A stretch of DNA of 37,654 bases, taken from positions 1 through 37,654 of the IMG/VR virus record IMGVR_UViG_3300034355_000265, one strand, 5' to 3'. Both the position numbers and the translations under genes were made by a program. Every line of letters starts with the position of its first letter. Position 1 is the first letter of the stretch. Source of the stretch: a virus. Below are positions 6,507-29,300 of this stretch, one piece after another. The notes beneath the pieces were generated by a model, which saw only the letters and a program-made list of their open reading frames with translations, made no database searches and had not been told where the DNA came from.

Positions 6507-6965
6507 ATGTTCCGCGACCTCCCCATCACTGCCAGAGAGCTAAAAGCCACGCCCGCGACGTTGGAGCGCATATACGACGGCGCGAAGCTGGGATTGCGTG
6601 GAGATTCGCTTGCGCTGGCTGCGGGTTTGTTGCCGGTGGAGTTGGCCCGGCTGAAGCTCATGGACCCGATTGCGGAGATCGCGGAGATGAAGGGCCGCGC
6701 CGACAGCGAGATGACGATGTCGCGCACGCTGTACGAGGCGGCCGAGGCTGGGGATTCGAAGGCGGCGCTGGAGTTCCTGCGGCACAGGCACGACTGGGTA
6801 GCGAAGCAGCAGGTGCAGGTCGACGTCGCGCAGTCGATCAGTATCACTGCGGCGCTGGAGATGGCCGAGAAGCGCGTGCGTGCTGCAGAAGCAATAGAGG
6901 ATGCGGTGGAAATCCGTAGACCGCTGGCGCGGCCGCAAACACTGGCGGAAATGGGCCCGATTTGA
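6507..6965 (+). CDS. terS: terminase small subunit
   Basis: A 152-residue protein, close to P22 gp3 (162). It starts MFRDLPITARELKATPATLE and has an N-terminal helical DNA-binding region (residues about 10-50). The segment MSRTLYEAAEAGDSKAALEF plus LRHRHDW is typical of phage small terminases, and a basic-acidic C-terminal tail follows. It recognises the packaging site and loads the large subunit. No Shine-Dalgarno precedes ATG 6507; an in-frame TTG at 6459 would add 16 residues but lacks one too. It is followed by the zincin gene and then the large subunit. The function is well supported by context; the start is less sure. Confidence 0.8.
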   Translation: MFRDLPITARELKATPATLERIYDGAKLGLRGDSLALAAGLLPVELARLKLMDPIAEIAEMKGRADSEMTMSRTLYEAAEAGDSKAALEFLRHRHDWVAKQQVQVDVAQSISITAALEMAEKRVRAAEAIEDAVEIRRPLARPQTLAEMGPI

Positions 6966-7012: not shown

Positions 7013-7681
7013 ATGGCCACAGGACTGAAAAAAACGTCTGGCGGGTTGCCCGCGTTGCGGTCAGCAAATGCGTTGGCGCCGGCGCCAGTAAATGCGTTGA
7101 CGCCGGCGGCGTCAAATCCACTGCAAAGATTGTTGCAAGAAGCTGGCAAAAATCAGCAATATCAAGATATGTCGGATTATTTGTCTAAACAACAAATGAT
7201 GCCTCCAATAGGATATGGAGACACAACAAGAGACGATTTTCTTGGAGTTTACCGGCGAGGTCCAGGTTTGCCAAAAAGTGGCGTCATAAATTTTGCAAGC
7301 GATGCCACTCCAAGAACTGCAGTGCACGAACTCACACACGCTGCGGACTATGCAATACAAGATCAATACCGTGATCTCAAGAATAAAAAAGGCGGGCTAA
7401 ATTCTCTTGAGCGTCAATTTATTGACGGGTATGAAAAGCTAGTTGGGCGTAATTTTTCCAAGCGTCGTGAATTTGTTGAACGCATAGCCCCTGACTTTTC
7501 TTACTTTAACAGGGACTATAGGTCTAGTGGCCCAGAGTTGGCGGCGTTTGGCATTGGCAGCACAGAATGGCCAAACGATGAAAATCCAGCCCCATTGCAT
7601 GTAGATTCAACATACGCTACAAAGTTTGCTGTTTTGCTTGATCTTGCAAGGCGTTTACAAAAACCTGCGGCAAAGAAATAA
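7013..7681 (+). CDS. zincin-like metalloprotein between terminase genes
   Basis: A 222-residue protein with GAGGAC before ATG 7013. Residues about 101-107 read AVHELTHAADY, an HExxH zinc-protease signature. GPELAAFGIGSTEW further on could supply the third ligand (Glu). The first 40 residues are Ala/Pro-rich and low-complexity. From about 7130 the DNA is clearly AT-richer than its neighbours and codon use changes, pointing to separate acquisition. It has no signal peptide, so it would act in the host cell or inside the virion, for example as a head-maturation or host-directed protease; both are inference. The gene ends one base before the terminase ATG. Confidence 0.75.
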   Translation: MATGLKKTSGGLPALRSANALAPAPVNALTPAASNPLQRLLQEAGKNQQYQDMSDYLSKQQMMPPIGYGDTTRDDFLGVYRRGPGLPKSGVINFASDATPRTAVHELTHAADYAIQDQYRDLKNKKGGLNSLERQFIDGYEKLVGRNFSKRREFVERIAPDFSYFNRDYRSSGPELAAFGIGSTEWPNDENPAPLHVDSTYATKFAVLLDLARRLQKPAAKK

Positions 7682-9214
7682 ATGCAGACCACGAAATACA
7701 CCCCGCAGGAAGAACAGGCGCTGATGAGTCGCCTGTGGAGCGCAAAGCTCCGCGACGACCCCGAAGCGTTCGTGATGTTTGTGTTTCCCTGGGGCGAAAA
7801 GGGTACGCCGCTGGAAAAGCGCAGCGGCCCGCGAAAGTGGCAGCGGGAGATTCTGCGGAAGATACGGGGTCACATCGAAGAAAACGGCGACCGCGATATG
7901 TACGAGGTATTCCGCTTGGCGGTGGCCTCGGGGCGGGGGATCGGAAAGTCGGCGCTGGTCAGTTGGCTGGTGCTCTGGATGCTGAGTACGCGGATCGGCG
8001 CGAGCGTGATCGTCAGTGCGAACAGCGAAGCGCAGCTGCGCAGCGTGACCTGGGCCGAGATTACGAAGTGGCTGGCGATGCTGATGAATTCGCACTGGTT
8101 CGAGATCAGCGCGACGCGTATCGTGCCGGCGAAGTGGCTCACAGAACTGGTGGAGCGCGACCTGAAGAAGGGTACGCGTTACTGGGGCGCGGAGGGCAAG
8201 CTCTGGAGCGACGAGAATCCCGATGCGTACGCTGGCGCGCACAACGACGACGGCATGATGGTCGTGTTCGACGAGGCCAGCGGTATCCCCGACAGTATCT
8301 GGAGCGTGGCTGCGGGGTTTTTCACGGAAAACACGCCGCACAGATTCTGGTGCGCGTTCAGTAACCCGCGGCGAAACTCTGGGTATTTTTTCGAGTGTTT
8401 TAACGCCAAGCGGAACTTTTGGAAGACGCAGAATATTGACGCCAGAACGGTGGAGGACACTGATAAAGGCGTGTACCAGGTGATTATTGACGAGTACGGC
8501 GAGGACTCGCCGCAGGCAATGGTCGAGGTATACGGCGAGTTTCCCGGCGCGGATGAATACCAGTTCATCCCGCTGGGGCTGGTGGAAGAAGCCGGCAAGC
8601 GGCCCCCGATGCGCGACCCGGAGGCACCCGTGGTGCTGGGGGTGGACCCCGCGCGGTACGGGGCGGACGCGACGATTATCGTGGCGCGACGGGGGCGGGA
8701 TTTGCTCGAAGTGCGACGGTTCCGGGGCGATGACACGATGACGGTGGTGGGGCACGTCATTGAGGCGATCGAGGATTTCCGGCCGGTGCTGACAGTGATT
8801 GACGAAGGCGGCCTGGGCGCGGGCGTGCTGGACAGACTGCTGGAGCAGCGGTATAAGGTGCGCGGGGTGAATTTCGGCTGGAAGGCCAAAGATCAAAAGG
8901 CGTACCAGAACAAGCGGGCCGAGATGTGGGGCGCGATGAAACAGTGGCTGCGCACGGCGTCGATCAAGGACGACAGGAACCTGAAGAAAGACCTGTGCGG
9001 CCCGAGAACGCGACCGAACTCATCGGGGGCGATTGCGCTGGAGACGAAGGAGCAGATGAAGGCCCGGGGTTTGGCTTCGCCTGATGCTGCTGACGCACTG
9101 GCAGTGACGTTTGCGTTTCCCGTGGCGCACAGGGAGTACAATCCGCGCAGCCAGCACCGGGTGGTTACGACGCACGGGGGAGCCATGCAGTCGGCCGGGT
9201 GGATGGCACACTGA
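7682..9214 (+). CDS. terL: terminase large subunit
   Basis: The 510-residue packaging motor has ATPase and nuclease halves. Walker A is SGRGIGKS (83-90, K89). Walker B is MMVVFDEAS (192-200, D197/E198). The RNase H-like nuclease shows GVDPARYG (D322), TVIDEGG (D374) and SPDAADAL near the C-terminus. The length agrees with P22 gp2 (499). It pumps DNA into the prohead through the portal and cuts concatemers, most likely by the headful mechanism given the P22-like context. The start follows the zincin stop directly with no clear Shine-Dalgarno, suggesting translation by re-initiation. Confidence 0.95.
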   Translation: MQTTKYTPQEEQALMSRLWSAKLRDDPEAFVMFVFPWGEKGTPLEKRSGPRKWQREILRKIRGHIEENGDRDMYEVFRLAVASGRGIGKSALVSWLVLWMLSTRIGASVIVSANSEAQLRSVTWAEITKWLAMLMNSHWFEISATRIVPAKWLTELVERDLKKGTRYWGAEGKLWSDENPDAYAGAHNDDGMMVVFDEASGIPDSIWSVAAGFFTENTPHRFWCAFSNPRRNSGYFFECFNAKRNFWKTQNIDARTVEDTDKGVYQVIIDEYGEDSPQAMVEVYGEFPGADEYQFIPLGLVEEAGKRPPMRDPEAPVVLGVDPARYGADATIIVARRGRDLLEVRRFRGDDTMTVVGHVIEAIEDFRPVLTVIDEGGLGAGVLDRLLEQRYKVRGVNFGWKAKDQKAYQNKRAEMWGAMKQWLRTASIKDDRNLKKDLCGPRTRPNSSGAIALETKEQMKARGLASPDAADALAVTFAFPVAHREYNPRSQHRVVTTHGGAMQSAGWMAH

Positions 9215-9800: not shown

Positions 9801-11954
9801 ATGGCACGCGACGACGGCATCAACGGGGCTCGGCGGGTAGCCGACGGCGGCTCGGACAAGTCTGAACTGCTGGCAGAAATGCGCACGCGGATGCAGTCCG
9901 CGCAGTCGGCGTTCTCGCTCACGCGGCAGGCTGAGTTGGACGACCTGCGGTTTATGGCCGGCAGTCCGGACAACAACTGGCAGTGGCCGCAGGACGTGCT
10001 TGCGACGCGCGGCAGCGTGCAGGGCCAGACGGTGAACGCCAGGCCGTGCCTGACGATCAACAAACTGCCGCAGCACGTTCGCAACGTCACCAACGAGCAG
10101 CGCCAGAACCGCCCCAGCGGCAAGGTCATCCCTGCGGACGATCAAGCCGACCCCGAAGTTGCCGAGATTTTCGACGGCATCGTGCGGCACATCGAGTACA
10201 TGTCTGACGCCGACGTGGCGTACGACACGGCCTGCGACAATCAAGTCACGTTCGGCGAAGGGTATATCCGCCTGCTGACGGAGTACTGCGACGAGGACAC
10301 GTTCGATCAGGACATTCGCATCGGCCGCATTCGCAACGCGTTCAGCGTGTACATGGACCCGATGATCCAAGACCCCTGCGGGTCGGATGCGCGGTACTGC
10401 TTTATCACGCAGGACATCACTGTCGACGAGTTCGAGCGGATGTTCCCCGATGCCACGCCGATCACGACGCTGCGCACGCAGGGCGTGGGCGATGCGTCGA
10501 TGGGGTACTGGCTGAACGAAAACACGGTGCGGATTGCCGAGTATTTCCGCATCGAAGAAGAACGCGCCACGCTGAACCTCTATCCTGGCGGCTTGACGGC
10601 GTTCAAAGGGTCGTTTGAGGCCCGCCAGATGGAAGCGATGGGCATGGAACCCGTGCGCACGCGGGAGTCGTCCAAGCGCGTTGTGAAGTGGATGAAGACC
10701 AACGGTTTCGAGGTTTTGGAGGAGCAGGACTGGGTCGGGAAGTACATTCCCGTGGTGCGCGTGGTCGGCAACGAGTTTGAGGTGGACGGCGAGATCCACG
10801 TCTCGGGCCTGGTGCGCAACGCCAAGGACGCCCAGCGCATGTACAACTACTGGGTGTCGCAGGAAGCCGAGATGCTGGCGCTGGCCCCGAAGGCGCCGTT
10901 CATCGGGTACGGCGGGCAGTTCGAGGGCTACGAGAACCAGTGGAAGACGGCCAACACGCAGAACTGGCCGTATCTGGAGGTAAACCCTGATGCCACAGAC
11001 GGAGCCGGAAATTCTTTCCCGCTTCCTCAGCGAGCGCAGCCGCCGATGGCACAGCAGGGGCTTATCGCCGCCAAGATGGGCGCCGCAGACGACATCAAGG
11101 CAACCACGGGCCAGTACGACCCGTCCCTCGGCGCGACTTCCAACGAACGATCGGGCCGCGCTATTCTGGCTCGTCAGGCTCAAAGCGATACCGGAACCTA
11201 CCACTATGTGGATAACTTGGCCCGGGCCATACGGCATGTGACGCGCCAGATTATCGACATGATCCCGAAGATCTACGACACGCAGCGCATCGCGCGAATC
11301 ATCGGCATGGACGGCCAGACAACGATGGCCAAGATCAACCCGATGCAGCCCGAGCCGGTGCGCGAGTTGAAGGACCAGAACGGCGTCACCATCGAGAAAA
11401 TTTACAACCCCGGCGTCGGCCGATACGACGTTGTGGTCACCACAGGCCCGTCGTACCTGACCAAACGCCAAGAAGCGATGGATGCCATGTCGCAGATCCT
11501 GCAGGGCTCGCCGCAGCTGTGGGCCGTGGCCGGCGACCTGTTTGTAAAGAACATGGACTGGCCGGGAGCGGAAGAACTGGCTGAACGCCTGCGCAAGACA
11601 ATCGACCCGAAGTTGCTGCAGGATCAGGACGACCCGGCGCTGCAGGCCGCGAACCAGCAGATTCAGGTGCTGACGCAAGAGATGCAGGCCATGCAGCAGA
11701 TGCTGCAGAACGTCCAGCAGTCGATGGAAGCGCAGAAGATGAAGGTCGACACGTTCAAGGCCGAGTCTGACGCCGAGATCAAGGCGTACGAGGCCGAGAC
11801 GCGTCGCTTGCAGGCTGTGCAGACCGGCATGACGCCTGAGCAAGTGCAGGAGATCATCATGCAGACCATGCGTGACATTGCCACTGTGGGTGACATGTCG
11901 ATTGCCATGCAGGGCCAAATGCCTACGGCTGCACCACAGGGGATGCCAGTATGA
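9801..11954 (+). CDS. portal protein (P22-like)
   Basis: The 717-residue protein is close to P22 gp1 (725). Typical portal sequence is seen early: LTINKLPQHVRNVTNEQRQN, then SDADVAYDTACDNQVTFGEG. The C-terminal region from about residue 610 to 690 is a long Gln-, Met- and Glu-rich coiled coil (QIQVLTQEMQAMQQMLQNVQ), matching the helical barrel that P22 portals carry into the capsid. Twelve copies form the DNA channel at one vertex, to which terminase docks and later the gp4- and gp10-like tail factors attach. It overlaps the next gene by ATGA. Confidence 0.95.
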   Translation: MARDDGINGARRVADGGSDKSELLAEMRTRMQSAQSAFSLTRQAELDDLRFMAGSPDNNWQWPQDVLATRGSVQGQTVNARPCLTINKLPQHVRNVTNEQRQNRPSGKVIPADDQADPEVAEIFDGIVRHIEYMSDADVAYDTACDNQVTFGEGYIRLLTEYCDEDTFDQDIRIGRIRNAFSVYMDPMIQDPCGSDARYCFITQDITVDEFERMFPDATPITTLRTQGVGDASMGYWLNENTVRIAEYFRIEEERATLNLYPGGLTAFKGSFEARQMEAMGMEPVRTRESSKRVVKWMKTNGFEVLEEQDWVGKYIPVVRVVGNEFEVDGEIHVSGLVRNAKDAQRMYNYWVSQEAEMLALAPKAPFIGYGGQFEGYENQWKTANTQNWPYLEVNPDATDGAGNSFPLPQRAQPPMAQQGLIAAKMGAADDIKATTGQYDPSLGATSNERSGRAILARQAQSDTGTYHYVDNLARAIRHVTRQIIDMIPKIYDTQRIARIIGMDGQTTMAKINPMQPEPVRELKDQNGVTIEKIYNPGVGRYDVVVTTGPSYLTKRQEAMDAMSQILQGSPQLWAVAGDLFVKNMDWPGAEELAERLRKTIDPKLLQDQDDPALQAANQQIQVLTQEMQAMQQMLQNVQQSMEAQKMKVDTFKAESDAEIKAYEAETRRLQAVQTGMTPEQVQEIIMQTMRDIATVGDMSIAMQGQMPTAAPQGMPV

Positions 11955-12887: not shown

Positions 12888-14624
12888 ATGGCCGCACTTG
12901 AAGTAATTGCCCTTGACACTGCAACGCCGCAGCTTCGTGCTCCAGGCGCTGGAGACACCTACACGTTCCCGCGTGCGGTTGCAATGACGGGGGCGCTGAC
13001 CTATGGCGGCGTAACGTTGAACAACGCTGTCACGGGCACTGGCAACATGGTGTTGTCTACGAGCCCAACGTTTACAACTCCAGTTCTTGGCACGCCGTCC
13101 AGTGGTACTTTGACAAGTTGCACGGGATTGCCAATTAGTACTGGTGTTGCAGGTCTTGGAACGGGCGTTGCAACGGCTCTTGCTGTAAATACAGGCTCTG
13201 CTGGCGCGTTTGTTGTCAATGGCGGGGCGTTGGGTACGCCATCTAGCGGCACCCTTACGAACGCCACTGGCCTTCCTCTGTCCACCGGCGTGACTGGCAC
13301 ACTGCCTGTTGCCAATGGCGGCACTGGACAAACCAGCTACACCGATGGGCAGCTTCTTATTGGTAACACCACCGGTAACACGCTGGCTAAGGCGACGTTG
13401 ACGGCTGGCGCCAACGTTACCATTACCAACGGGTCCGGCAGCATCACTATTGCCGCATCGGGAGGTGGCGGTTCTTCGACGTTGACTATTAGCGACAAGA
13501 CCGGCGCCTACACCGTCGTTGCGGGGGATCTCGGGACCATCATCAACTGCACATCTGGCACGTTCACTGTGTCGCTGACAGCGGCGGCTACGCTTGGGTC
13601 TGGGTTCAATTGCTGGATCTGGAATACTGGTACAGGCGTCATTACTATTGATCCAAATGGGACAGAAACGGTAGATGGCGTTGATCCAACTACTGAATTT
13701 AAACTTACGCAAGGTACGGGCGTAAGACTTGTCTGCACTGGTACTAATTGGCTTACAGGAGACAATAGAACTACCGGAACAGCATCTATTGGCGTGCTGG
13801 GAACACAAATTGGAAGAAACTCAACAGGCGACATGGCTGTCGCAATTACAGGACAAGGAGCTATGGCTCTCGGCGGCTCCTACGCCTCCGGCGTCGACAG
13901 TTTTGCGGCGGCTGTTGCAAACAATACGGTTACTTATGGAGCACAAAATGCAAATGCACTTGCTATGGGAAGCCTTTCTAAGGCAAACGGCTCTTCGTCC
14001 GTAGCGATTGGCAGGCAAAATACTGCTAGCGGCACAAGAAGTTTAGCGTTGGGAAATTTATCAAACGCAAGTGGTACTGGAAGTGTCGCAATTGGCTGTG
14101 GCTCAGCCGTTGGTTTTGGCGCAAACGCCAGTGGAGTTGACGCAATAGCTTTTGGGGATAGTGCGACTGCCTTACAAATAAAAAAATATGCTTTTGCCGG
14201 ATGGGGTTCTGCCTCCGCAGGCAGTTCTCAAATGGGTATTTTGTTGTTGTGCAAAACAACAACAAATGACACTGCAACGGTTCTTACATCTGACACGGGC
14301 GTTGCCGCAACGTCAAACCAAGTTATTCTCTCCAACAGCAGCGCCTACGCTTTCACAGGAACCGTTGTCGCCCGCCAACAAGCCGCAGACGGCACAGACT
14401 CTGCTGCGTGGAAAATCGAAGGTTTGATTCGCAGGGAAGCTAACGCCGCGAGCACGACGCTGGTGGCCTCAACCGTCACCGCCATCGACAACACCCCAGG
14501 CTGGACGCTGGCGCTCAGCGCTGACACCACCAACGGCGGTCTTGCAGTAACCGCAACCGGCGCAGCAGCAACTGATATTCGGTGGGTTGCCACTGTGCAA
14601 ACCTCTGAAGTCATCTACGCATAA
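12888..14624 (+). CDS. fibre-like protein with YadA-type head repeats
   Basis: A 578-residue protein with AAGGAA before the ATG. The N-terminal third has the phage-fibre pattern GTPSSGTLTNATGLPLSTGV and TLPVANGGTGQTSYTDGQLL. A beta domain follows, then a YadA/Hep_Hag-type stretch of short repeats (SSVAIGRQNTASGTRSLALG, GSVAIGCG). This predicts a trimeric, rigid, outward fibre. Finding it between portal and scaffold genes rather than with the tail genes is unusual and suggests a head fibre. The repeat section is AT-richer than its surroundings, as expected for exchanged receptor-binding parts. Confidence 0.8.
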   Translation: MAALEVIALDTATPQLRAPGAGDTYTFPRAVAMTGALTYGGVTLNNAVTGTGNMVLSTSPTFTTPVLGTPSSGTLTSCTGLPISTGVAGLGTGVATALAVNTGSAGAFVVNGGALGTPSSGTLTNATGLPLSTGVTGTLPVANGGTGQTSYTDGQLLIGNTTGNTLAKATLTAGANVTITNGSGSITIAASGGGGSSTLTISDKTGAYTVVAGDLGTIINCTSGTFTVSLTAAATLGSGFNCWIWNTGTGVITIDPNGTETVDGVDPTTEFKLTQGTGVRLVCTGTNWLTGDNRTTGTASIGVLGTQIGRNSTGDMAVAITGQGAMALGGSYASGVDSFAAAVANNTVTYGAQNANALAMGSLSKANGSSSVAIGRQNTASGTRSLALGNLSNASGTGSVAIGCGSAVGFGANASGVDAIAFGDSATALQIKKYAFAGWGSASAGSSQMGILLLCKTTTNDTATVLTSDTGVAATSNQVILSNSSAYAFTGTVVARQQAADGTDSAAWKIEGLIRREANAASTTLVASTVTAIDNTPGWTLALSADTTNGGLAVTATGAAATDIRWVATVQTSEVIYA

Positions 14625-17296: not shown

Positions 17297-17590
17297 ATGT
17301 CCAACGCAAACTTTGAAGCGCCCAAGATTGGCGACGGCCAGCAGATGGGCGACGGCAACGTCGAGGAAACCCTCAACGTCGGCCGCAGCGGCCAGCCCGT
17401 GCAGATGCAACCCACTGCCACCGGCAAGGTCGGGTTCTACGGCACAACGCCGATCACGCAGCGCACCGCTGCCGTGGCTACCTCAGCAGTCGGCACCGCG
17501 TCGTCTGCTGATGTCACCACGACGCTGAAGGCTGCCGTGATTGACATCATGAACACGCTGGCCGCTCTCGGCCTGGCCAAGGCTGCGTGA
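17297..17590 (+). CDS. small head-region protein, paralogue B
   Basis: A 97-residue protein with AAAGGA before ATG 17297. Its last about 50 residues repeat those of the upstream protein (GFYGTTPITQRTAAVATSAV, then SSADVTTTLKAAVIDIMNTL), while the N-terminus is different (MSNANFEAPKIGDGQQMGDG). This looks like an old tandem duplication with exchange of the N-terminal half. The shared part may be the multimerisation or capsid-binding module. It ends in a GTGA overlap with the methyltransferase gene. Confidence 0.75.
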   Translation: MSNANFEAPKIGDGQQMGDGNVEETLNVGRSGQPVQMQPTATGKVGFYGTTPITQRTAAVATSAVGTASSADVTTTLKAAVIDIMNTLAALGLAKAA

Positions 17591-18096
17591 TCAAGGTGCT
17601 TCATGCGGGATGCGGCCGAGAGCCGCTTCCCGAGTGGATACAGGGTCAGGAGACTCGTCTGGACATTGACCCAGGCGTCTCTCCTGACTTTGTTGCTCCC
17701 ATGACCGACATGGGGGACATCGGCGAATATCACATCGCATACTGCTCGCATGTGCTGGAACACATGCCGCCGCACGAAATCGTGCAAGCGTTGAGCGAAC
17801 TGCACCGCGTGCTGATGCCGGGTGGGTTTTTCATCGCCGTGGTGCCGGATCTGGAGGGCATCAAGCCCGACAACACCGTCGTCTACGAATCGCCAGCAGG
17901 CCCGGTCACGGGGCTGGACATGTACTACGGCATGGCCAGACTGGTTCAGAGCAATCCGTACATGGCGCACAAATACGGGTTCGTCCGCAAGACGCTGATC
18001 GACTTTGTCGAGCACGCCGGGTTTAAGGTCCGCCATGCTGGCCCGTCCATCAATCACCAACTCATGATCACCGCACAAAGGCCCGTGACGCAATGA
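17587..18096 (+). CDS. SAM-dependent methyltransferase (class I)
   Basis: A 169-residue protein, GTG start overlapping the upstream stop. Motif I is VLHAGCGREP. LDIDP ends strand 2. CSHVLEHMPPHEI and LHRVLMPGGFFIAVVPD are hallmark post-I segments of the Methyltransf_11 group. The substrate cannot be read from the sequence. It is coupled by ATGA to a glycosyltransferase and embedded in the head operon, which suggests modification of a sugar or of virion or host surface components. The fold is sure; the substrate is not. Confidence 0.87.
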   Translation: MIKVLHAGCGREPLPEWIQGQETRLDIDPGVSPDFVAPMTDMGDIGEYHIAYCSHVLEHMPPHEIVQALSELHRVLMPGGFFIAVVPDLEGIKPDNTVVYESPAGPVTGLDMYYGMARLVQSNPYMAHKYGFVRKTLIDFVEHAGFKVRHAGPSINHQLMITAQRPVTQ

Positions 18097-23732: not shown

Positions 23733-26030
23733 ATGGCAAAGCTAACGTCAAAAGGCACTTACGCCGTTTCTGACTGGTCGAACGTTGACGCCCTGTTCCC
23801 AAAGACGCGGATGGGGACTGGCGCGGAAGACTCTGACGTCACCTACCAGAATGACGCCTACACGCAATTCAAGAACCTAGAGAGCGGCTACTGGCTCCAG
23901 TTTTTGCCGCAACTTGGGTTTACTGGGCCGACTACCAAAGAGGTTGTCAACTTCCCCGGCACGGAAAACGAAGAAAGAACGACGACGATTTCCGACGAGG
24001 CTGCTGCTGCAATCCAGCAGTTCAAGGCGCAAGGTTACGATGTTGTCATCAATCCCAATAAGATTGATTCTGGCAGTAAAAGCGTAACCGAGTTTGCGTT
24101 CAAGACGCCAGACGGCAAGTTTCAAAAGACTTGGGAATACACCGGTGGCGCATGGTACGAGCAAGTTGCTCCGTACCTTGGGCTTGTGCTGCCCGGAATT
24201 CTCGGCATGGCGGGCATTACCGCCGGTAGTCTTGGCGCGTCTATCACAGGGCAAACGTCCAACGCTCTGTTAAACAACGCGGTCGGCGGCGCGATTATTG
24301 GCGGCGCAAAAGAACTGATTACCAGCGGCGGCGATTTTGAGTCCGCCATCAAAGGCGCACTGACTGGCGGCGCGTTGGGTGCTGCGGCGGAGTTGGCGCA
24401 GCCATACATCAAAGACGCCGCAAACGCGCTATCCAATCTGACCGGCGAAGAAGTCGCGCGGTTGGCCAGCACCGATGTTGCGGCGACAGACGTTGCTGTC
24501 GACTTGGGCGACGTGGATGTGGGTGGCGGAACGTCTGTGTCTGGCTATGGCGGCGCGGGCGACGTAAGCATTCAAGATGTGGCTCTTGGCGCTGACCCGC
24601 TGTACGGCGGCGCATATACCGGGTTCAACACGGCGCAGAGCTACAGCAGCCTGACGGACTATGGCAAGGACGTTTACGCGGGAGAACTTGCGCTGGGCAA
24701 GTCTCCAGATGCTGCGCTGATCAGTGCGTTTCGGGCAGAGTCGCTGAACTTTCCGACGACCGGCAACGCGCTGGCGACGGGCGGGGCTGCGACGCCCGTT
24801 ACTCCGCCGCCTAGTGGTGGAACGTCTGTGTCTGGCTATGGTAACGCAGGCGACTTTCAAGCCATGGATGTTGCAGGAGTGGGCGCAACAACGGGCGTAA
24901 CAAATGCCTTGGCTGGCGGAACGGTTGTTCCCGTCAACGCTGGAGGTGTCGCCGACACGCTATCCACCGGAATGCAGGAAGAACTCGGCCGGACCGGCGC
25001 CTACACTGGGGGTAACGCTGCTGCCGACGCAGCATTGGGCCTTGGTGCCGCAGGCACTGCCGCAGGCGTAGCGGGTGCGGGTGTGGCTGCCGGTGCAGCA
25101 GGTGCTGCCGGTGCAGCAGGTGCTGCTGGCGCAGGCGGCGTGATTACCGAAGCGGATCTGGCAGGACTAGACCCCAACCTCACGCTAGGCGGCGGCTCTG
25201 ACGTGCTAGGCGGCACTGATGTCGGCGGCGGCACAGGCGCAATCATCACGGGCGCAGCAGGCGGCGCTGGTGCGGGCGCTCTCACTGCGGGTGGCGCTAC
25301 TGCCGGCCTCACCGGCATCAAAGCCGTAGACGACTTCCTCAACTACATCGGCACGCCCGCAGGCGCTGCGGCGCTGGGTGCGTTCGGCAGCCTGGCAGGC
25401 GGGTATCTAACGGGCCAAGCGGCGAAGGACGCGGCGAACATCCAGGCGCAGTCGGCGCAGAACGCGTTGGCGCTGCAACGCGAGCAGTTTGAGTACCAAA
25501 AGGGCTTGCTGGAGCCGTATCGCAAGGCGGGCGAATCGGCGCTGGGCAGACTAAGCGGCGTGATGGGCCTCGACGGCCAACCCGCCCAGCCCCAGCAACT
25601 GCTGGACATGGACCCCGGCTACGCTTTCCGCTTGGGCGAGGGCATGAAAGCGCTGGAGCGCGTGCAGGCCGCGCGGGGCAACATGCTGTCTGGCGGGGCG
25701 ATCAAGGCAGGCCAGCGGTACGCGCAGGACTTTGCCTCGGGCGAGTACGGTAACGCGTACAACCGCCTAGCCAACATCGCCGGATTGGGGCAAACTGTCG
25801 GCGGTCAGTTGGGCTCTGCGGCCCAGCAGTTTGGCCAGACGGCAGGGGAAACGATGTCTCAGGGCGCGAATGCACTGGCGGCGGGGCGCGTGGGCCGCAC
25901 CAGCGGCTACATGGGTGGCATCGGTGGCGCTGTAGGCGCCTATCAGAACTACCAGAACCAGCAGCAGCAGAACCAGCTGTTTGGAAGGTTTCTAGACATC
26001 TACGGCCGCTCCGTCGGCGCTGGGGGCTGA
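23733..26030 (+). CDS. putative DNA-ejection (injected) virion protein 1
   Basis: A 765-residue protein with GAGG before the ATG. A hydrophobic Gly/Ala segment at about residues 150-170 (LGLVLPGILGMAGITAGSLG), an extended Gly/Ala-rich middle (about 430-540) and a conserved C-terminus (NALALQREQFEYQKGLLEPY, GYAFRLGEGMKALERVQAAR, GNMLSGGAIKAGQRYAQDFA) are typical of phage internal DNA-transfer proteins. An exact 23-base repeat (24528-24550 and 24819-24841) encodes a GGTSVSGYG motif twice. Family context suggests it is packaged in the head and forms part of the periplasmic conduit. The role is inferred from this and from position. Confidence 0.7.
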   Translation: MAKLTSKGTYAVSDWSNVDALFPKTRMGTGAEDSDVTYQNDAYTQFKNLESGYWLQFLPQLGFTGPTTKEVVNFPGTENEERTTTISDEAAAAIQQFKAQGYDVVINPNKIDSGSKSVTEFAFKTPDGKFQKTWEYTGGAWYEQVAPYLGLVLPGILGMAGITAGSLGASITGQTSNALLNNAVGGAIIGGAKELITSGGDFESAIKGALTGGALGAAAELAQPYIKDAANALSNLTGEEVARLASTDVAATDVAVDLGDVDVGGGTSVSGYGGAGDVSIQDVALGADPLYGGAYTGFNTAQSYSSLTDYGKDVYAGELALGKSPDAALISAFRAESLNFPTTGNALATGGAATPVTPPPSGGTSVSGYGNAGDFQAMDVAGVGATTGVTNALAGGTVVPVNAGGVADTLSTGMQEELGRTGAYTGGNAAADAALGLGAAGTAAGVAGAGVAAGAAGAAGAAGAAGAGGVITEADLAGLDPNLTLGGGSDVLGGTDVGGGTGAIITGAAGGAGAGALTAGGATAGLTGIKAVDDFLNYIGTPAGAAALGAFGSLAGGYLTGQAAKDAANIQAQSAQNALALQREQFEYQKGLLEPYRKAGESALGRLSGVMGLDGQPAQPQQLLDMDPGYAFRLGEGMKALERVQAARGNMLSGGAIKAGQRYAQDFASGEYGNAYNRLANIAGLGQTVGGQLGSAAQQFGQTAGETMSQGANALAAGRVGRTSGYMGGIGGAVGAYQNYQNQQQQNQLFGRFLDIYGRSVGAGG

Positions 26031-26031
26031 C

Positions 26032-27243
26032 ATGCCAATTGACGCAAGCATCATCTCGCAAGCGCGAAACATCCCGCAGATCCGGTATCAGCCGGAGTCG
26101 CAGTTTGAGTCGTTCGCCAAAATCCAGCCGACGCTGAATGCGATGCGCCAGATGCGGCAGGAGGAGATGCAGTCGCAGCAAAGCATGGCGGAACAGCAAG
26201 CGCTGCAAGAGATTCGCCAGCGCGGCTACGATCCAGAGGAGATTGGCACGCTTTTGCAGATGCACGGCAAGACACAAGCGCAGATGGAGCTGGGTGTCAA
26301 AATGGTGCAAGCGGCCCGCGCCGGGAGAGCTGATCAGCGACCGTCAGTGGTTAGGCCGGGAGAAGCTCTTGTGTCGCCGGCAGGGCAGGAGTTGTACCGT
26401 GCGCAAGCGGATCAAAAGCCAAAGCTGGAGAAGGTGCAGCTTGGAGACAGGGTGGCGTTTATTGACATGAACCCATCCAGTCCGACGTTCCGGCAAGAGG
26501 TTGTGTCGCAAGCGATGGGCGCGGCGCCGGAAGCGCCGGGAGCGGCAGAGGCGCGAGGGATTAACCGGCAACGCGCCGAGTTAGAGGCGCAGCGGCTAGA
26601 CCTTGAGCGTCAGCGCGTTCAAGCGCAGGCGAGCAGAGATGCGCAGGCTACCGCAAGGCTTGACCAACAACTTGCGCAAAATGCGGAGCGTTTACAGCTT
26701 GAGCGCAGGCGCGTGGAGTTGGCCGAAGGGCGTCCTACGCCAGCGGCGGAAAAAGCGCAAATGGATGCAAGGCAACGGGTGACTAACCTTGAAACCACAA
26801 TCAAAGAGCTTCGGGACATTAGCGCGCCTGGCGGTCTAATTGACCAGTCCACAGGAAGTGGCGTCGGCGCCGCAACGGACGTTGCTGCCGGCATGGTTGG
26901 TATTGCAACGCCTGGTGCGATTGCTATTGGCAAGTTGCAACCAATTGCAGACTTGGTGTTGAAAAGCGTTCCGCGTTTTGAGGGCCCGCAGTCTGACAAA
27001 GACACGCAATCGTACAAAGAGGCCGCTGGCCGCTTGGCAGATCCGACTGTCCCTACAAAAATTCGCAAAGAGGCAGCGCAAACCATAATTCGCCTGATGG
27101 AAAAGTCTAAGACTCAGGCGCAGGCCGCAGCCGCACAGCCTGCGGTTCGCGCCGCAACACCCCAGTCATCCGCAGTTCCTGCTGGCGTTGACGCCGAAGA
27201 CTGGAAGTACATGACCGACGAGGAGAAATCGCTGTGGAAATGA
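26032..27243 (+). CDS. putative ejection protein 2, coiled coil
   Basis: A 403-residue helical protein, GGGGG before ATG 26032. It opens with MPIDASIISQARNIPQIRYQ and a Gln/Met-rich helix (MRQMRQEEMQSQQSMAEQQA). Residues about 175-260 form a long Arg/Gln/Glu coiled coil (ELEAQRLDLERQRVQAQASR). The end (DAEDWKYMTDEEKSLWK) is short and acidic. Position between the 765- and 688-residue proteins fits the three-gene ejection set of P22-like phages (gp7, gp20, gp16). There is no direct motif proof. Confidence 0.6.
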   Translation: MPIDASIISQARNIPQIRYQPESQFESFAKIQPTLNAMRQMRQEEMQSQQSMAEQQALQEIRQRGYDPEEIGTLLQMHGKTQAQMELGVKMVQAARAGRADQRPSVVRPGEALVSPAGQELYRAQADQKPKLEKVQLGDRVAFIDMNPSSPTFRQEVVSQAMGAAPEAPGAAEARGINRQRAELEAQRLDLERQRVQAQASRDAQATARLDQQLAQNAERLQLERRRVELAEGRPTPAAEKAQMDARQRVTNLETTIKELRDISAPGGLIDQSTGSGVGAATDVAAGMVGIATPGAIAIGKLQPIADLVLKSVPRFEGPQSDKDTQSYKEAAGRLADPTVPTKIRKEAAQTIIRLMEKSKTQAQAAAAQPAVRAATPQSSAVPAGVDAEDWKYMTDEEKSLWK

Positions 27244-29300
27244 CTGTTGAGCAGCAGCGCGCACTTGCGGTTGCGCGTGCGCGTCGCCGCAGAGCAGAAA
27301 CTTCTACAACACCGCCGGGCCAAATTCCTGGCGCTGGGCCGCATCAGGCGCCGCCTGCGGCCGAGATTTCTGTTGGGCGCAGGGTTGCGCAAGGTGTGCA
27401 ACGTAACGTCGGTCAGATCGTCAGCGCGCTTCAACCATCCGCAGAAATGCTTGCAGCTGCAGGAGGCGCCGTTCGCGGAGCCGCTGCGATGGCCCCCGCT
27501 GGTCCGGTAGCAGCGGCTGCAGGCGGCGTTGCTGGCGGCATCGCCGGCTTTACTGGGGCGCGTACTGGGGCTGAATTGCTGCAAGGCCAGCAGCCTGACG
27601 TGCAAGGCGCGGTGCAAGAAGCGGTTGCCGGCGAACTGATTGGGCGAGGTGCCGCGTCTGCGATTCGCACCGGCGCGCGTGGACTGGACTATTTGCGATC
27701 GCTGCCGCAGAACAAAGCTGTCAACATCGCTCGGCAGGCGGCAGGGCCGGAAGCAAAAAACATTCGCGCCGCACTGCAAGGCGCAGAACCCGGCATGACG
27801 CCGGCCCAAGCGACGGCGGGGTCGCCTCGGCAGGCTTGGCAAGCGCTGTTGGCCTTTGAGCCCACAGACTTTGCTGCGGACGTTGCGCGCCGGCAGAAGG
27901 CTCTGTCTCAGTCTCAATTGGCCGGCCTAGCGGGCGGCCCATCTGCCACTGCGGCACGCGAGACTGCGGAAGCAGGCAAACAGCAGCTGACCGATATTAC
28001 GTCGCCGATGCGCGAAACGGAACTTGCTGCGGCGAACGAAGCCCAGCGAGTGATGAATGCGCTGGTGCCGCGCAGGCAGCAAAAGCAGGGCTCAATGGTA
28101 TCGGCCCTGCAAGAATCAGGACGTACAGGCACTGAAGCCGCGCAACGCACAGAGTCTGCCGTTCAGCAGTTGCAGCGCGTGGTTCCCGGGCAAATTCCAT
28201 CCGTCAGCGCCCGGCAAACGGCGCGCGTGCAAGCGGCGGCTGGAGCCCAGCAGCAGGAGGCGTCGAATCTGTTTGCCGACATTTCCCGTCAACGTCGAGC
28301 GGAGCGGGATTTCATTGATCGACAGATTGGCAGCCTAGAGGCGTATGGACTGCGGCCGCTGGACATCAATCCTGTGGTGCAGCGCATTGACACAACGCTG
28401 AATACGCCAGGCATTCGCGCCAGCACGGATGTGACGCGAGTCATGTCGCTGCTGAAAGACGATTTGCTGAATTTGGCAGAGCGGAACGGTGGCGTCATTG
28501 ACGCGCACGATCTGTACACGCTGCGGAAGGAAGGCGTGGCGCAGCGCGTGCGGGATGTTCTGAAGCAGGACGACCCGAAAGCGGCAGCCAAAGTCACTGC
28601 GGCAGTGGTGGACAAGTTTCGCCCGCTCATTGACAACGCAATCGAGCAGGCGGGCGGCACTGGATGGCGTCAATATCTTGACACCTACAGCAAAGGCATG
28701 GACGTTATTGCGCGCAAGCAGATGGCCGCGCAGGCGCTGGACATGTTCAAGGGCAACCCGCAGGATTACGTCAGGCTGGTGCGCGGCGACAACCCTGACG
28801 CGGTGGAGGCGATCTTCGGGCCTGGCCGCTACAGCATCTTTAAAGAGATGACTGCAGAGATGCCAACGCTGGACAAGGTTGCGCGAATTGTCGAGGCCGA
28901 CAAACTGGCAGCAGAAAAGGCTGCCGGCGGCAGGGGCGAATTGGCGCAAATCTTGGAAGCCAATCGCGCAAAGTTGCGGCTTCCCAACTGGTTCAGTCCG
29001 ACCATCACTGCTGCAAACATGCGACTTGCCGACGTTGAGAAGCGCGTCAACAAGAAAACCATCGACATGATCCGCAAGGCGGCCGAGTCCAACCAAGGAA
29101 TGATTGACTTGCTGGACGGCTTGCCAATCAAGGAGCGCCAGAAGCTGTTGCGGCTTGTGACCGACATTTCCACGTCTGGCGTCGGTCAAGCAGTCATTCC
29201 TGCGGCGCGCGCAGCAGTTGCGCCGACAATCGGCGAACTGTTTCGCAAGGCAGAAAACGCCCTCGCCCCCGAACCCATCAACGCCCTGACCGCGCCATGA
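27234..29300 (+). CDS. putative ejection protein 3
   Basis: A 688-residue protein; GTG 27234 is chosen because GAGGAG stands 8 bases upstream (an in-frame ATG at 27240 also overlaps the upstream stop). The N-terminus is basic and Ala/Gln-rich. About residues 75-110 hold a Gly/Ala hydrophobic stretch (MAPAGPVAAAAGGVAGGIAG). The rest is long amphipathic helices (DVTRVMSLLKDDLLNLAERN, LDKVARIVEADKLAAEKAAG). I see no lysozyme or transglycosylase motif. Position and composition suit the largest injected protein of the set. Confidence 0.62.
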   Translation: MEMTVEQQRALAVARARRRRAETSTTPPGQIPGAGPHQAPPAAEISVGRRVAQGVQRNVGQIVSALQPSAEMLAAAGGAVRGAAAMAPAGPVAAAAGGVAGGIAGFTGARTGAELLQGQQPDVQGAVQEAVAGELIGRGAASAIRTGARGLDYLRSLPQNKAVNIARQAAGPEAKNIRAALQGAEPGMTPAQATAGSPRQAWQALLAFEPTDFAADVARRQKALSQSQLAGLAGGPSATAARETAEAGKQQLTDITSPMRETELAAANEAQRVMNALVPRRQQKQGSMVSALQESGRTGTEAAQRTESAVQQLQRVVPGQIPSVSARQTARVQAAAGAQQQEASNLFADISRQRRAERDFIDRQIGSLEAYGLRPLDINPVVQRIDTTLNTPGIRASTDVTRVMSLLKDDLLNLAERNGGVIDAHDLYTLRKEGVAQRVRDVLKQDDPKAAAKVTAAVVDKFRPLIDNAIEQAGGTGWRQYLDTYSKGMDVIARKQMAAQALDMFKGNPQDYVRLVRGDNPDAVEAIFGPGRYSIFKEMTAEMPTLDKVARIVEADKLAAEKAAGGRGELAQILEANRAKLRLPNWFSPTITAANMRLADVEKRVNKKTIDMIRKAAESNQGMIDLLDGLPIKERQKLLRLVTDISTSGVGQAVIPAARAAVAPTIGELFRKAENALAPEPINALTAP

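Follow-up and report, generated by a model that had tools for sequence, protein, structure and literature searches.

A zincin gene beside the terminase genes of a P22-like phage and a terminal peptide that may address proteins to the virion

Why does a gene for a putative metallopeptidase reside between the two terminase genes of a phage? The question is raised by IMG/VR virus record IMGVR_UViG_3300034355_000265, which was analysed over its full 37,654 bases (the window) and in which the open reading frame (ORF) under study occupies positions 7013-7681 of the plus strand, between the putative gene for the small terminase subunit (terS) and that for the large one (terL). An original prediction made from the letters alone had noticed the zincin-like HELTH motif and was silent on a peptide with the pattern NALAP-x3-NAL close to the N-terminus of the protein, as well as on its copy at the end of a putative ejection protein of the same phage. 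Building on this peptide, we think it rather probable that the zincin is loaded into the head by NALAP-x3-NAL, is injected together with the DNA and cleaves a bacterial protein early in infection.

A peptide shared by the zincin and a putative ejection protein

A strict-pattern scan of the six-frame ORFs of the window revealed one other tagged protein, the 27234-29300 product, which ends in ...NALAPEPINALTAP (Table 1). We refer to it as EjC. Its gene is located two genes downstream of a 'DNA ejection' match (phrog_598, 23733-26030). All ten residues common to the two window tags are specified by different codons, so that it is the peptide and not the DNA that is alike; for the same reason a recombination seam as the source of both copies was rejected. 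Among 24 EjC homologues in IMG/VR, 21 of the 21 with a visible and undisturbed end finish in two NAL-like triplets, with variable linkers such as NALAPLAEPTNAL and NALSPESENVNAL. L126 and L127, cut by the contig end, and L123, with a disturbed end, were left out of this count, which includes the fragment L125. Two NAL-like triplets also open nine of the 11 zincins in alignment A1 (e.g. NALAPRPQNAL, NALTPKAQNAL), the exceptions being L010 and L046. The ssrA tag ends in ALAA. A degradation signal of this kind was considered and rejected, because the C-terminal tags end in AQ, AP, AR, VE, TAP, NAQ and such after NAL and because N-terminal copies could not serve.

The pattern NALAPxxxNAL was back-translated to DNA and scanned over IMG/VR. 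At least 118 stretches were obtained and 113 loci examined; the records are not independent, with 78 distinct flanks among the 113. Of at least 113 sites, 88 lie in the longest open frame and 98 in frames with 100 codons or more, and 78 of these 98, among the matches listed, fall into the first or last tenth of the frame. Ejection-like proteins are ended by 41 of the 98 listed sites (one blastp cluster of 40, plus one). Another 52 listed sites begin proteins of 11 families, no two of which resemble each other by blastp (E 1e-4 over 50 residues). The remaining five of the 98 (F11-F14, F17) were put aside as probable chance; none of them adjoins terS, terL or portal, and one is found near an ejA match. 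For 51 of the 52 listed N-terminal sites (51 of 57 including the five set aside), terS, terL or the portal gene is the closest recognised neighbour on one or both sides: 22 reside between terS and terL, 17 between terL and portal, and 12 further sites are flanked on one side by one of the three, at a distance of more than 1 kb in L266 and L279. One site has none of these genes in view. Three of the 52, all of them zincins, start with GTG and were counted within the zincin family.

The permuted motif ANLPAxxxANL served as a control. It yielded 81 sites, 19 of them in frames of at least 100 codons and only one of these 19 in the first or last tenth; 11 of the 81 are in the longest open frame as compared with 88 of 113 for NALAP (matches listed). 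As many as 43 of the 81 are situated three residues or fewer before a stop in short frames (13 or 43 codons among the matches listed), and these represent mostly one repeated reading outside the longest frame of another gene. The terminal position of NALAP and its linkage to the terminase are not reproduced by the permuted motif, and behind the same N-terminal tag one domain is swapped for another. The N-tagged families, among the matches listed, include an LPD23 protein and F5, a second family of HExxH type (HESMH). When one member per tagged family was inspected, zincins excluded (n=10), eight had no Pfam match and seven no PHROG match at E 0.1. An F5 gene at L272 2116-2847 is NAL-tagged and located between terS and terL; its product lacks blastp similarity to the window zincin.

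By analogy, the best reading of NALAP is that of a virion-loading tag resembling the capsid targeting sequence of phage T4. T4 packs its internal proteins IPI-III into the head via this N-terminal sequence; they are poorly conserved and mostly dispensable, many of them are injected, and IPI acts as a restriction-enzyme inhibitor (PMC9026906). The likeness to what is described there consists in a short N-terminal peptide on different cargo proteins, here 11 families at 52 listed sites. In contrast to T4, the NALAP phages form an unrelated group, the NAL motif is bipartite, the cargo genes stand beside terL and a copy of the motif terminates a putative ejection protein as well. More tentatively than for the zincin itself, and at somewhat less than even odds, we propose that P22-like phages of one broad environmental group share NALAP-x3-NAL as a terminal address peptide for virion loading, which would be lasting where it closes the third ejection protein and a plug-in N-terminus on a large repertoire of exchanged single-domain effectors encoded beside the terminase.

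In such a scheme, NALAP-x3-NAL at the start of the zincin would be the same docking signal as at the end of EjC, and by means of it the zincin would enter the head alongside the ejection protein. Both would exit with the DNA into the bacterium, where the peptidase may cut a host protein, perhaps one involved in defence. Loading, injection and the cleavage of a host protein are suggested by the analogy with T4 internal proteins and with N4-type polyvalent proteins. As partner of the tag, coat, portal or some other head protein would come into question. As the address would lie in the tag and not in the domain, foreign enzyme domains would be exchangeable behind it, and the places beside terL would constitute a cassette for swappable injected effectors.

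In titles and abstract starts on packaging signals and injected proteins the tag is undescribed, preprints and most subscription journals being outside this scope, and a literature search for NALAP returned only a resistance-gene paper. If the proposal is true, NALAP would correspond, in podoviruses, to the T4 capsid targeting sequence and, among viruses, to the cargo-loading peptides of encapsulins. The latter are short terminal peptides that address cargo into an HK97-fold shell; likened here by description only, they are similar as short terminal addresses and differ in serving bacterial compartments, not virions. Proteins injected by these phages could then be read from the sequence via the end-tag, many unnamed small genes beside terL would become candidate injected effectors, the question of how short-tailed phages select the contents of their heads would become testable, and a simple address peptide would be available for laboratory loading of P22-type heads.

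The peptidase and its place beside terL

That the ORF product is a zincin, as originally predicted, and one of the gluzincin type, is supported by its sequence and predicted fold. His105, Glu106, His109, Glu175 and His196 are invariant in an alignment of 18 homologous sequences. A second AlphaFold2 model (predicted local distance difference test score, pLDDT, 90.5; predicted template modelling score, pTM, 0.88) has the expected elements, a three-stranded sheet, an N-terminal helix and two C-terminal helices, and shows both the HExxH helix and the Glu helix. Glu175 sits in helix 142-154 of this model (as residue 144 there), which is the next conserved helix after HExxH. A first Foldseek search of the PDB gave no match with E < 1. 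Fold matches to named internal proteins, in line with a virion link of the domain, were weak (E 0.07-0.3). In a structural second look lethal factor leads (Z 10.1, 154 residues, root mean square deviation 4.1), with the Pro-Pro endopeptidase PPEP-2 at Z 7.2; the lead of zincins holds among the families that this second look lists, and with 10-15% identity over aligned residues these closest solved structures are alike in fold only.

Using hhalign, the family was compared with the metallopeptidase (MPTase) region of the N4 virion RNA polymerase, which gave a probability of 76 and E 2.3e-5 over 97 columns with both zinc-site motifs aligned, a single comparison of moderate strength. The original prediction had named the lack of any profile or fold match, together with a lack of His/Glu conservation in homologues, as evidence against a zincin. 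Both points were examined, and conserved residues, a predicted zincin fold and the N4 link were found. The window protein itself, however, matches no curated zinc-peptidase family in Pfam or PHROG. Comparison with PDB sequences gave only rows with E of at least 0.69. Nothing usable emerged for the window protein from plasmids or from a single-sequence search of viral contigs, from phage records searched by tblastn with three zincin-family queries, or from genome contigs searched with alignment A2. Homologues have weak PHROG matches, namely to phrog_1233 (best E 0.0005, 6 of 11 members), phrog_4415 ('peptidase') and phrog_2206 ('virion RNA polymerase'). Pfam matches of family members (WLM, Aspzincin and others; E 0.05-0.4) were taken as chance.

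Zincin-like MPTase domains are carried by polyvalent phage proteins for which injection is assumed (Iyer et al., 2017, PMC5512222). In N4, the C-terminal region of the virion RNA polymerase with its MPTase domain is needed for encapsidation, and a His at the end of strand 2 together with an Asp three residues after HExxH marks one MPTase group only according to the same article. The window protein resembles the domains described there in HExxH followed by Glu in the next conserved helix, in the phage virion context, in Asp112 three residues after HExxH (Glu or Gln in 4 of the 18 aligned rows, those of L041, L098, L099 and L169) and in its profile similarity to N4. Unlike them, it lacks a Pfam match, stands alone with 222 amino acids and is not part of a large multidomain polypeptide, and no conserved His near strand 2 is apparent in the 18-sequence alignment and the second model. 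We class it as a solo relative and not as a polyvalent protein because the ORF has a single domain and only one homologue, detected when alignment searches widened the family, lies inside a large frame (1837 codons, L104).

The foreign base composition noted in the original prediction is real, though confined to the domain. The ORF has a G+C content (GC) of 0.462 and, at third codon positions (GC3), of 0.381, as opposed to a GC of 0.618 for the window; the corresponding GC and GC3 values are 0.638 and 0.784 for terS and 0.622 and 0.800 for terL. The stretch 7118-7681 is AT-rich (GC3 0.335), whereas the first 35 codons have a GC of 0.610 and a GC3 of 0.629. The GC contrast owes something to the Ala and Pro codons of the tag; GC3 is fairer and rests on 35 codons. 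Other N-tagged genes differ in this contrast, which is reversed in F7, where the domain exceeds the tag in GC. Purifying selection acts on the zincin homologues, with ratios of nonsynonymous to synonymous substitution rates (dN/dS) of 0.09-0.29 in 8 of 10 pairs, both pairs that involve the window being saturated in dS.

The gene is accessory and mobile. When the best 80 of 142 loci related through terL were taken as relatives, many of them partial, a zincin homologue (39-45% identity) was present in 17, always downstream of terL and, in all 15 loci with a portal gene in view, preceding it; at 63 of the 80 loci it was not found. The gene thus recurs elsewhere, as the original prediction had proposed to look for, albeit downstream of terL rather than between terS and terL. 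None of ten loci with a terL 98.4-100% identical to that of the window has the zincin, and two of those with at least 98.4% identity hold unrelated genes where the window has it. The next nearest, L010 and L011 (terL 98%, rounded), contain a 40-41% identical homologue after terL. L169 is a phage with non-homologous terL (phrog_38) and portal (phrog_15554), and here again a zincin lies between the two.

The ORF does split the terS-terL pair, and phages of this group repeatedly carry cargo at that place. In 59 of the 74 relatives with both genes in view the terS-terL gap does not exceed 150 bases, and a longer insert is present in 15. These inserts differ: they encode a PAPS-reductase-like protein (under the Pfam cut-off), a Mom-like protein, HNH plus methyltransferase, a methyltransferase, small DUF6321-type proteins or a 144-residue protein whose first residues look like the start of the window zincin. 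Mom-family-like proteins constitute recurrent terS-terL cargo without a NAL tag (L007 5150-5716, Pfam Mom E 8.8e-4; L041 5418-5873, E 2.7e-8), and L017 832-1287 and L046 5545-6000 look like this cargo by eye. In L080 (3643-4072) and L081 (5572-6001), a small DUF6321-type gene and adjacent small genes precede terL; in the window they follow it, a case of shuffled gene order around terL.

How the readings compare

Several observations weigh against an address peptide for virion loading. The tagged EjC is called an ejection protein by position, because it has no PHROG family at E 0.1. While both tagged cargo and a strictly tagged ejection homologue are encoded in the window and in G001, nine records (G009, G011, G012, G019, G020, G021, G023, G028, G037) have NAL-type tagged cargo without the strict C-terminal tag. 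In six of the nine, the ejection homologue has a degenerate or single-triplet end: variants such as YNALAR, NNLAPGEQNQNALAR and NALAPQDQNNLNRR are seen in G011, G019, G020, G023 and G028, and only NNLNRR remains in G021. G009, G012 and G037, of which two are clearly partial records, yielded no ejection homologue. G005 and G017 have a coat and portal like those of the window and show no tag; the search for an ejection homologue gave none in G005, and the one in G017 lacks NAL at its end. The distant zincin homologue in L169 is untagged, the window zincin itself has a hybrid start (MATGLKKT..., then NALAP), and in L010 (same contig as L100 and L166) the start of an adjacent small gene stands in place of the tag. 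The domains encoded by L010 7971-8636 and L011 2605-3270 are alike from VRQTDEVQ on and their starts differ (MPLVKSASKDAFRK vs MPLNALTPKAQNSL), which, judged by the sequences, marks a join where tag and domain meet. Either loss of the tag or a chimeric L010 copy would account for this. In phage DSL-LC05, a relative from lake water, ...NMLAPASEVQNSL, a degenerate tag, occurs near the end of a 'putative DNA transfer protein' and the strict tag is absent.

Some of this variation may be connected with the capsid. Tag-positive records resemble the window in terL, portal (65-96%) and, where visible, coat (70-98%). In another group terL is 76-79% identical to that of the window, but portal and coat (the coat visible in three records) are only 23-28% identical, and here cargo starts with MATGLxxTAVSPHTM or MADLRETAVDPMTG, followed by a domain that varies: LPD23 with HELQH, a weak ART-PolyVal match (E 0.071), a KGYFG protein or a zincin. 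An ejection-like homologue in G007/G008 of this group ends without NAL. A scan for TAV-x-PHTM gave 15 stretches, seven of them true N-termini beside terL (some on contigs already known) and eight chance. The sequences of these few records hint that the type of tag follows the capsid; a similar coat is not sufficient, as the untagged G005 and G017 indicate. Since cargo starts change along with coat and portal under a similar terminase in the few records at hand, the partner of the tag may be the inner face of coat or portal. The second constant N-terminus (MATGL.RTAVSPHTM or MADLRETAVDPMTG) is found beside terL in L052 (7538-8698), L057 (3001-4107) and L048 (2313-3263), joined to LPD23 with HELQH, a weak ART-PolyVal-like domain or a PITEKDF stretch.

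The strongest competitor of virion loading, which we nevertheless regard as rather unlikely, is an ordinary moron, i.e. a peptidase that is translated after infection from a ribosome-binding site of its own, acts on host or defence proteins and stays unpackaged, the tag serving otherwise. A GAGG lies five bases 5' of the ATG. In favour of a moron, the ORF is accessory, foreign in composition, placed at a hot spot common to DNA-modification-like genes and a nuclease, and has untagged relatives. What a moron leaves unexplained is that one terminal peptide ends a putative ejection protein and opens 11 unrelated families near the terminase. A host-directed or anti-defence protease, one of the functions originally suggested, has the context in its favour, and cleavage of a host protein would follow by analogy.

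The other suggested function, a new head protease, is disfavoured because the gene is absent beside near-identical terL genes, with unrelated genes in its place in two of these loci. It is unlikely that the zincin acts in the procapsid to process a head or ejection protein, even though it resides within the head module here and between terL and portal in the unrelated L169 as well, and although virion-linked zincins have precedents in N4 and P1 (PMC5512222). In addition, unrelated domains occupy the same places in other relatives, and unlike head-maturation proteases the zincin is not a core gene of the head module.

A slightly poorer candidate still is a tag that is a functionless remnant linker, left when cargo domains that were once C-terminal extensions of the ejection protein were split off. 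A C-terminal tag in one protein and N-terminal tags in others would be expected of a split linker, and zincin domains do occur within large frames. A dead linker should decay, however, and the tag is retained in both partners with different codons, and also where the portal is only 65-79% identical to that of the window. Least probable is that NALAP is the recognition or cleavage sequence of the zincin itself: its fold resembles Pro-Pro endopeptidases and the window tag contains Ala-Pro-Ala-Pro-Val, but the tag begins ten other cargo families (matches listed), the EjC homologue of G014 ends in it with no zincin near terL, and the scan pattern fixes only one Pro. For virion loading by a terminal address, a functional protein end has a precedent in T7 gp16, the last residues of which are needed for infectivity (PMC8954989).

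Window features and neighbouring genes

Table 1. Positions of the zincin gene, the two tags and the genes bordering the cargo sites in the window.
Feature	Position	Strand	Remarks
Zincin-like metallopeptidase gene	7013..7681	+	222 amino acids, ATG to stop uninterrupted
N-terminal tag region	7013..7117	+	phage-like composition; pLDDT 37-41 for residues 1-30, first model
NALAPAPVNAL, bipartite NAL tag	7067..7099	+	residues 19-29 of zincin; N-terminal
Zincin domain	7118..7681	+	residues 36-222; AT-rich, GC 0.434
HELTH	7325..7339	+	residues 105-109; predicted zinc ligands His105, His109; predicted catalytic Glu106
Glu175	7535..7537	+	predicted third zinc ligand; invariant in 18/18 aligned sequences
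HVD motif	7598..7606	+	family-specific; His196 in 18/18, Asp198 in 17/18
Putative terminase small subunit (terS)	6507..6965	+	left border of slot; position and conservation
Terminase large subunit (terL)	7682..9214	+	right border of slot; phrog_2, E 9.6e-44
P22-type portal	9801..11954	+	P22_portal E 4.7e-180; terL-portal interval is the second cargo site
Putative third ejection protein (ejC)	27234..29300	+	688 amino acids; P22 gp16-like by position only; ends in tag
NALAPEPINAL, C-terminal tag copy	29256..29288	+	residues 675-685 of 688

The window contains a P22-like head module with terL, portal, scaffold, coat (phrog_283), a head-closure protein and the 'DNA ejection' gene (phrog_598). The label terS for 6507-6965 is based on position, on conservation and on the labelling in phage DSL-LC05, as the PHROG match is unconvincing (best E 0.53). 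A stretch homologous to it precedes terL in 74 of the 80 relatives, the most distant ones aligning over 36-40 residues only. In DSL-LC05 the gene at the corresponding place is labelled terS; tblastn gave no match to that gene.

Two further window genes are of interest. A gene for a tail-type protein with YadA head repeats (Pfam E 1.4e-12) is situated between portal and scaffold at 12888-14624, with a GC3 of 0.49 that is below that of its neighbours. Between the coat and the head-completion genes, 17587-18096 encodes a protein with a weak methyltransferase match (phrog_6636, E 3.5e-5).
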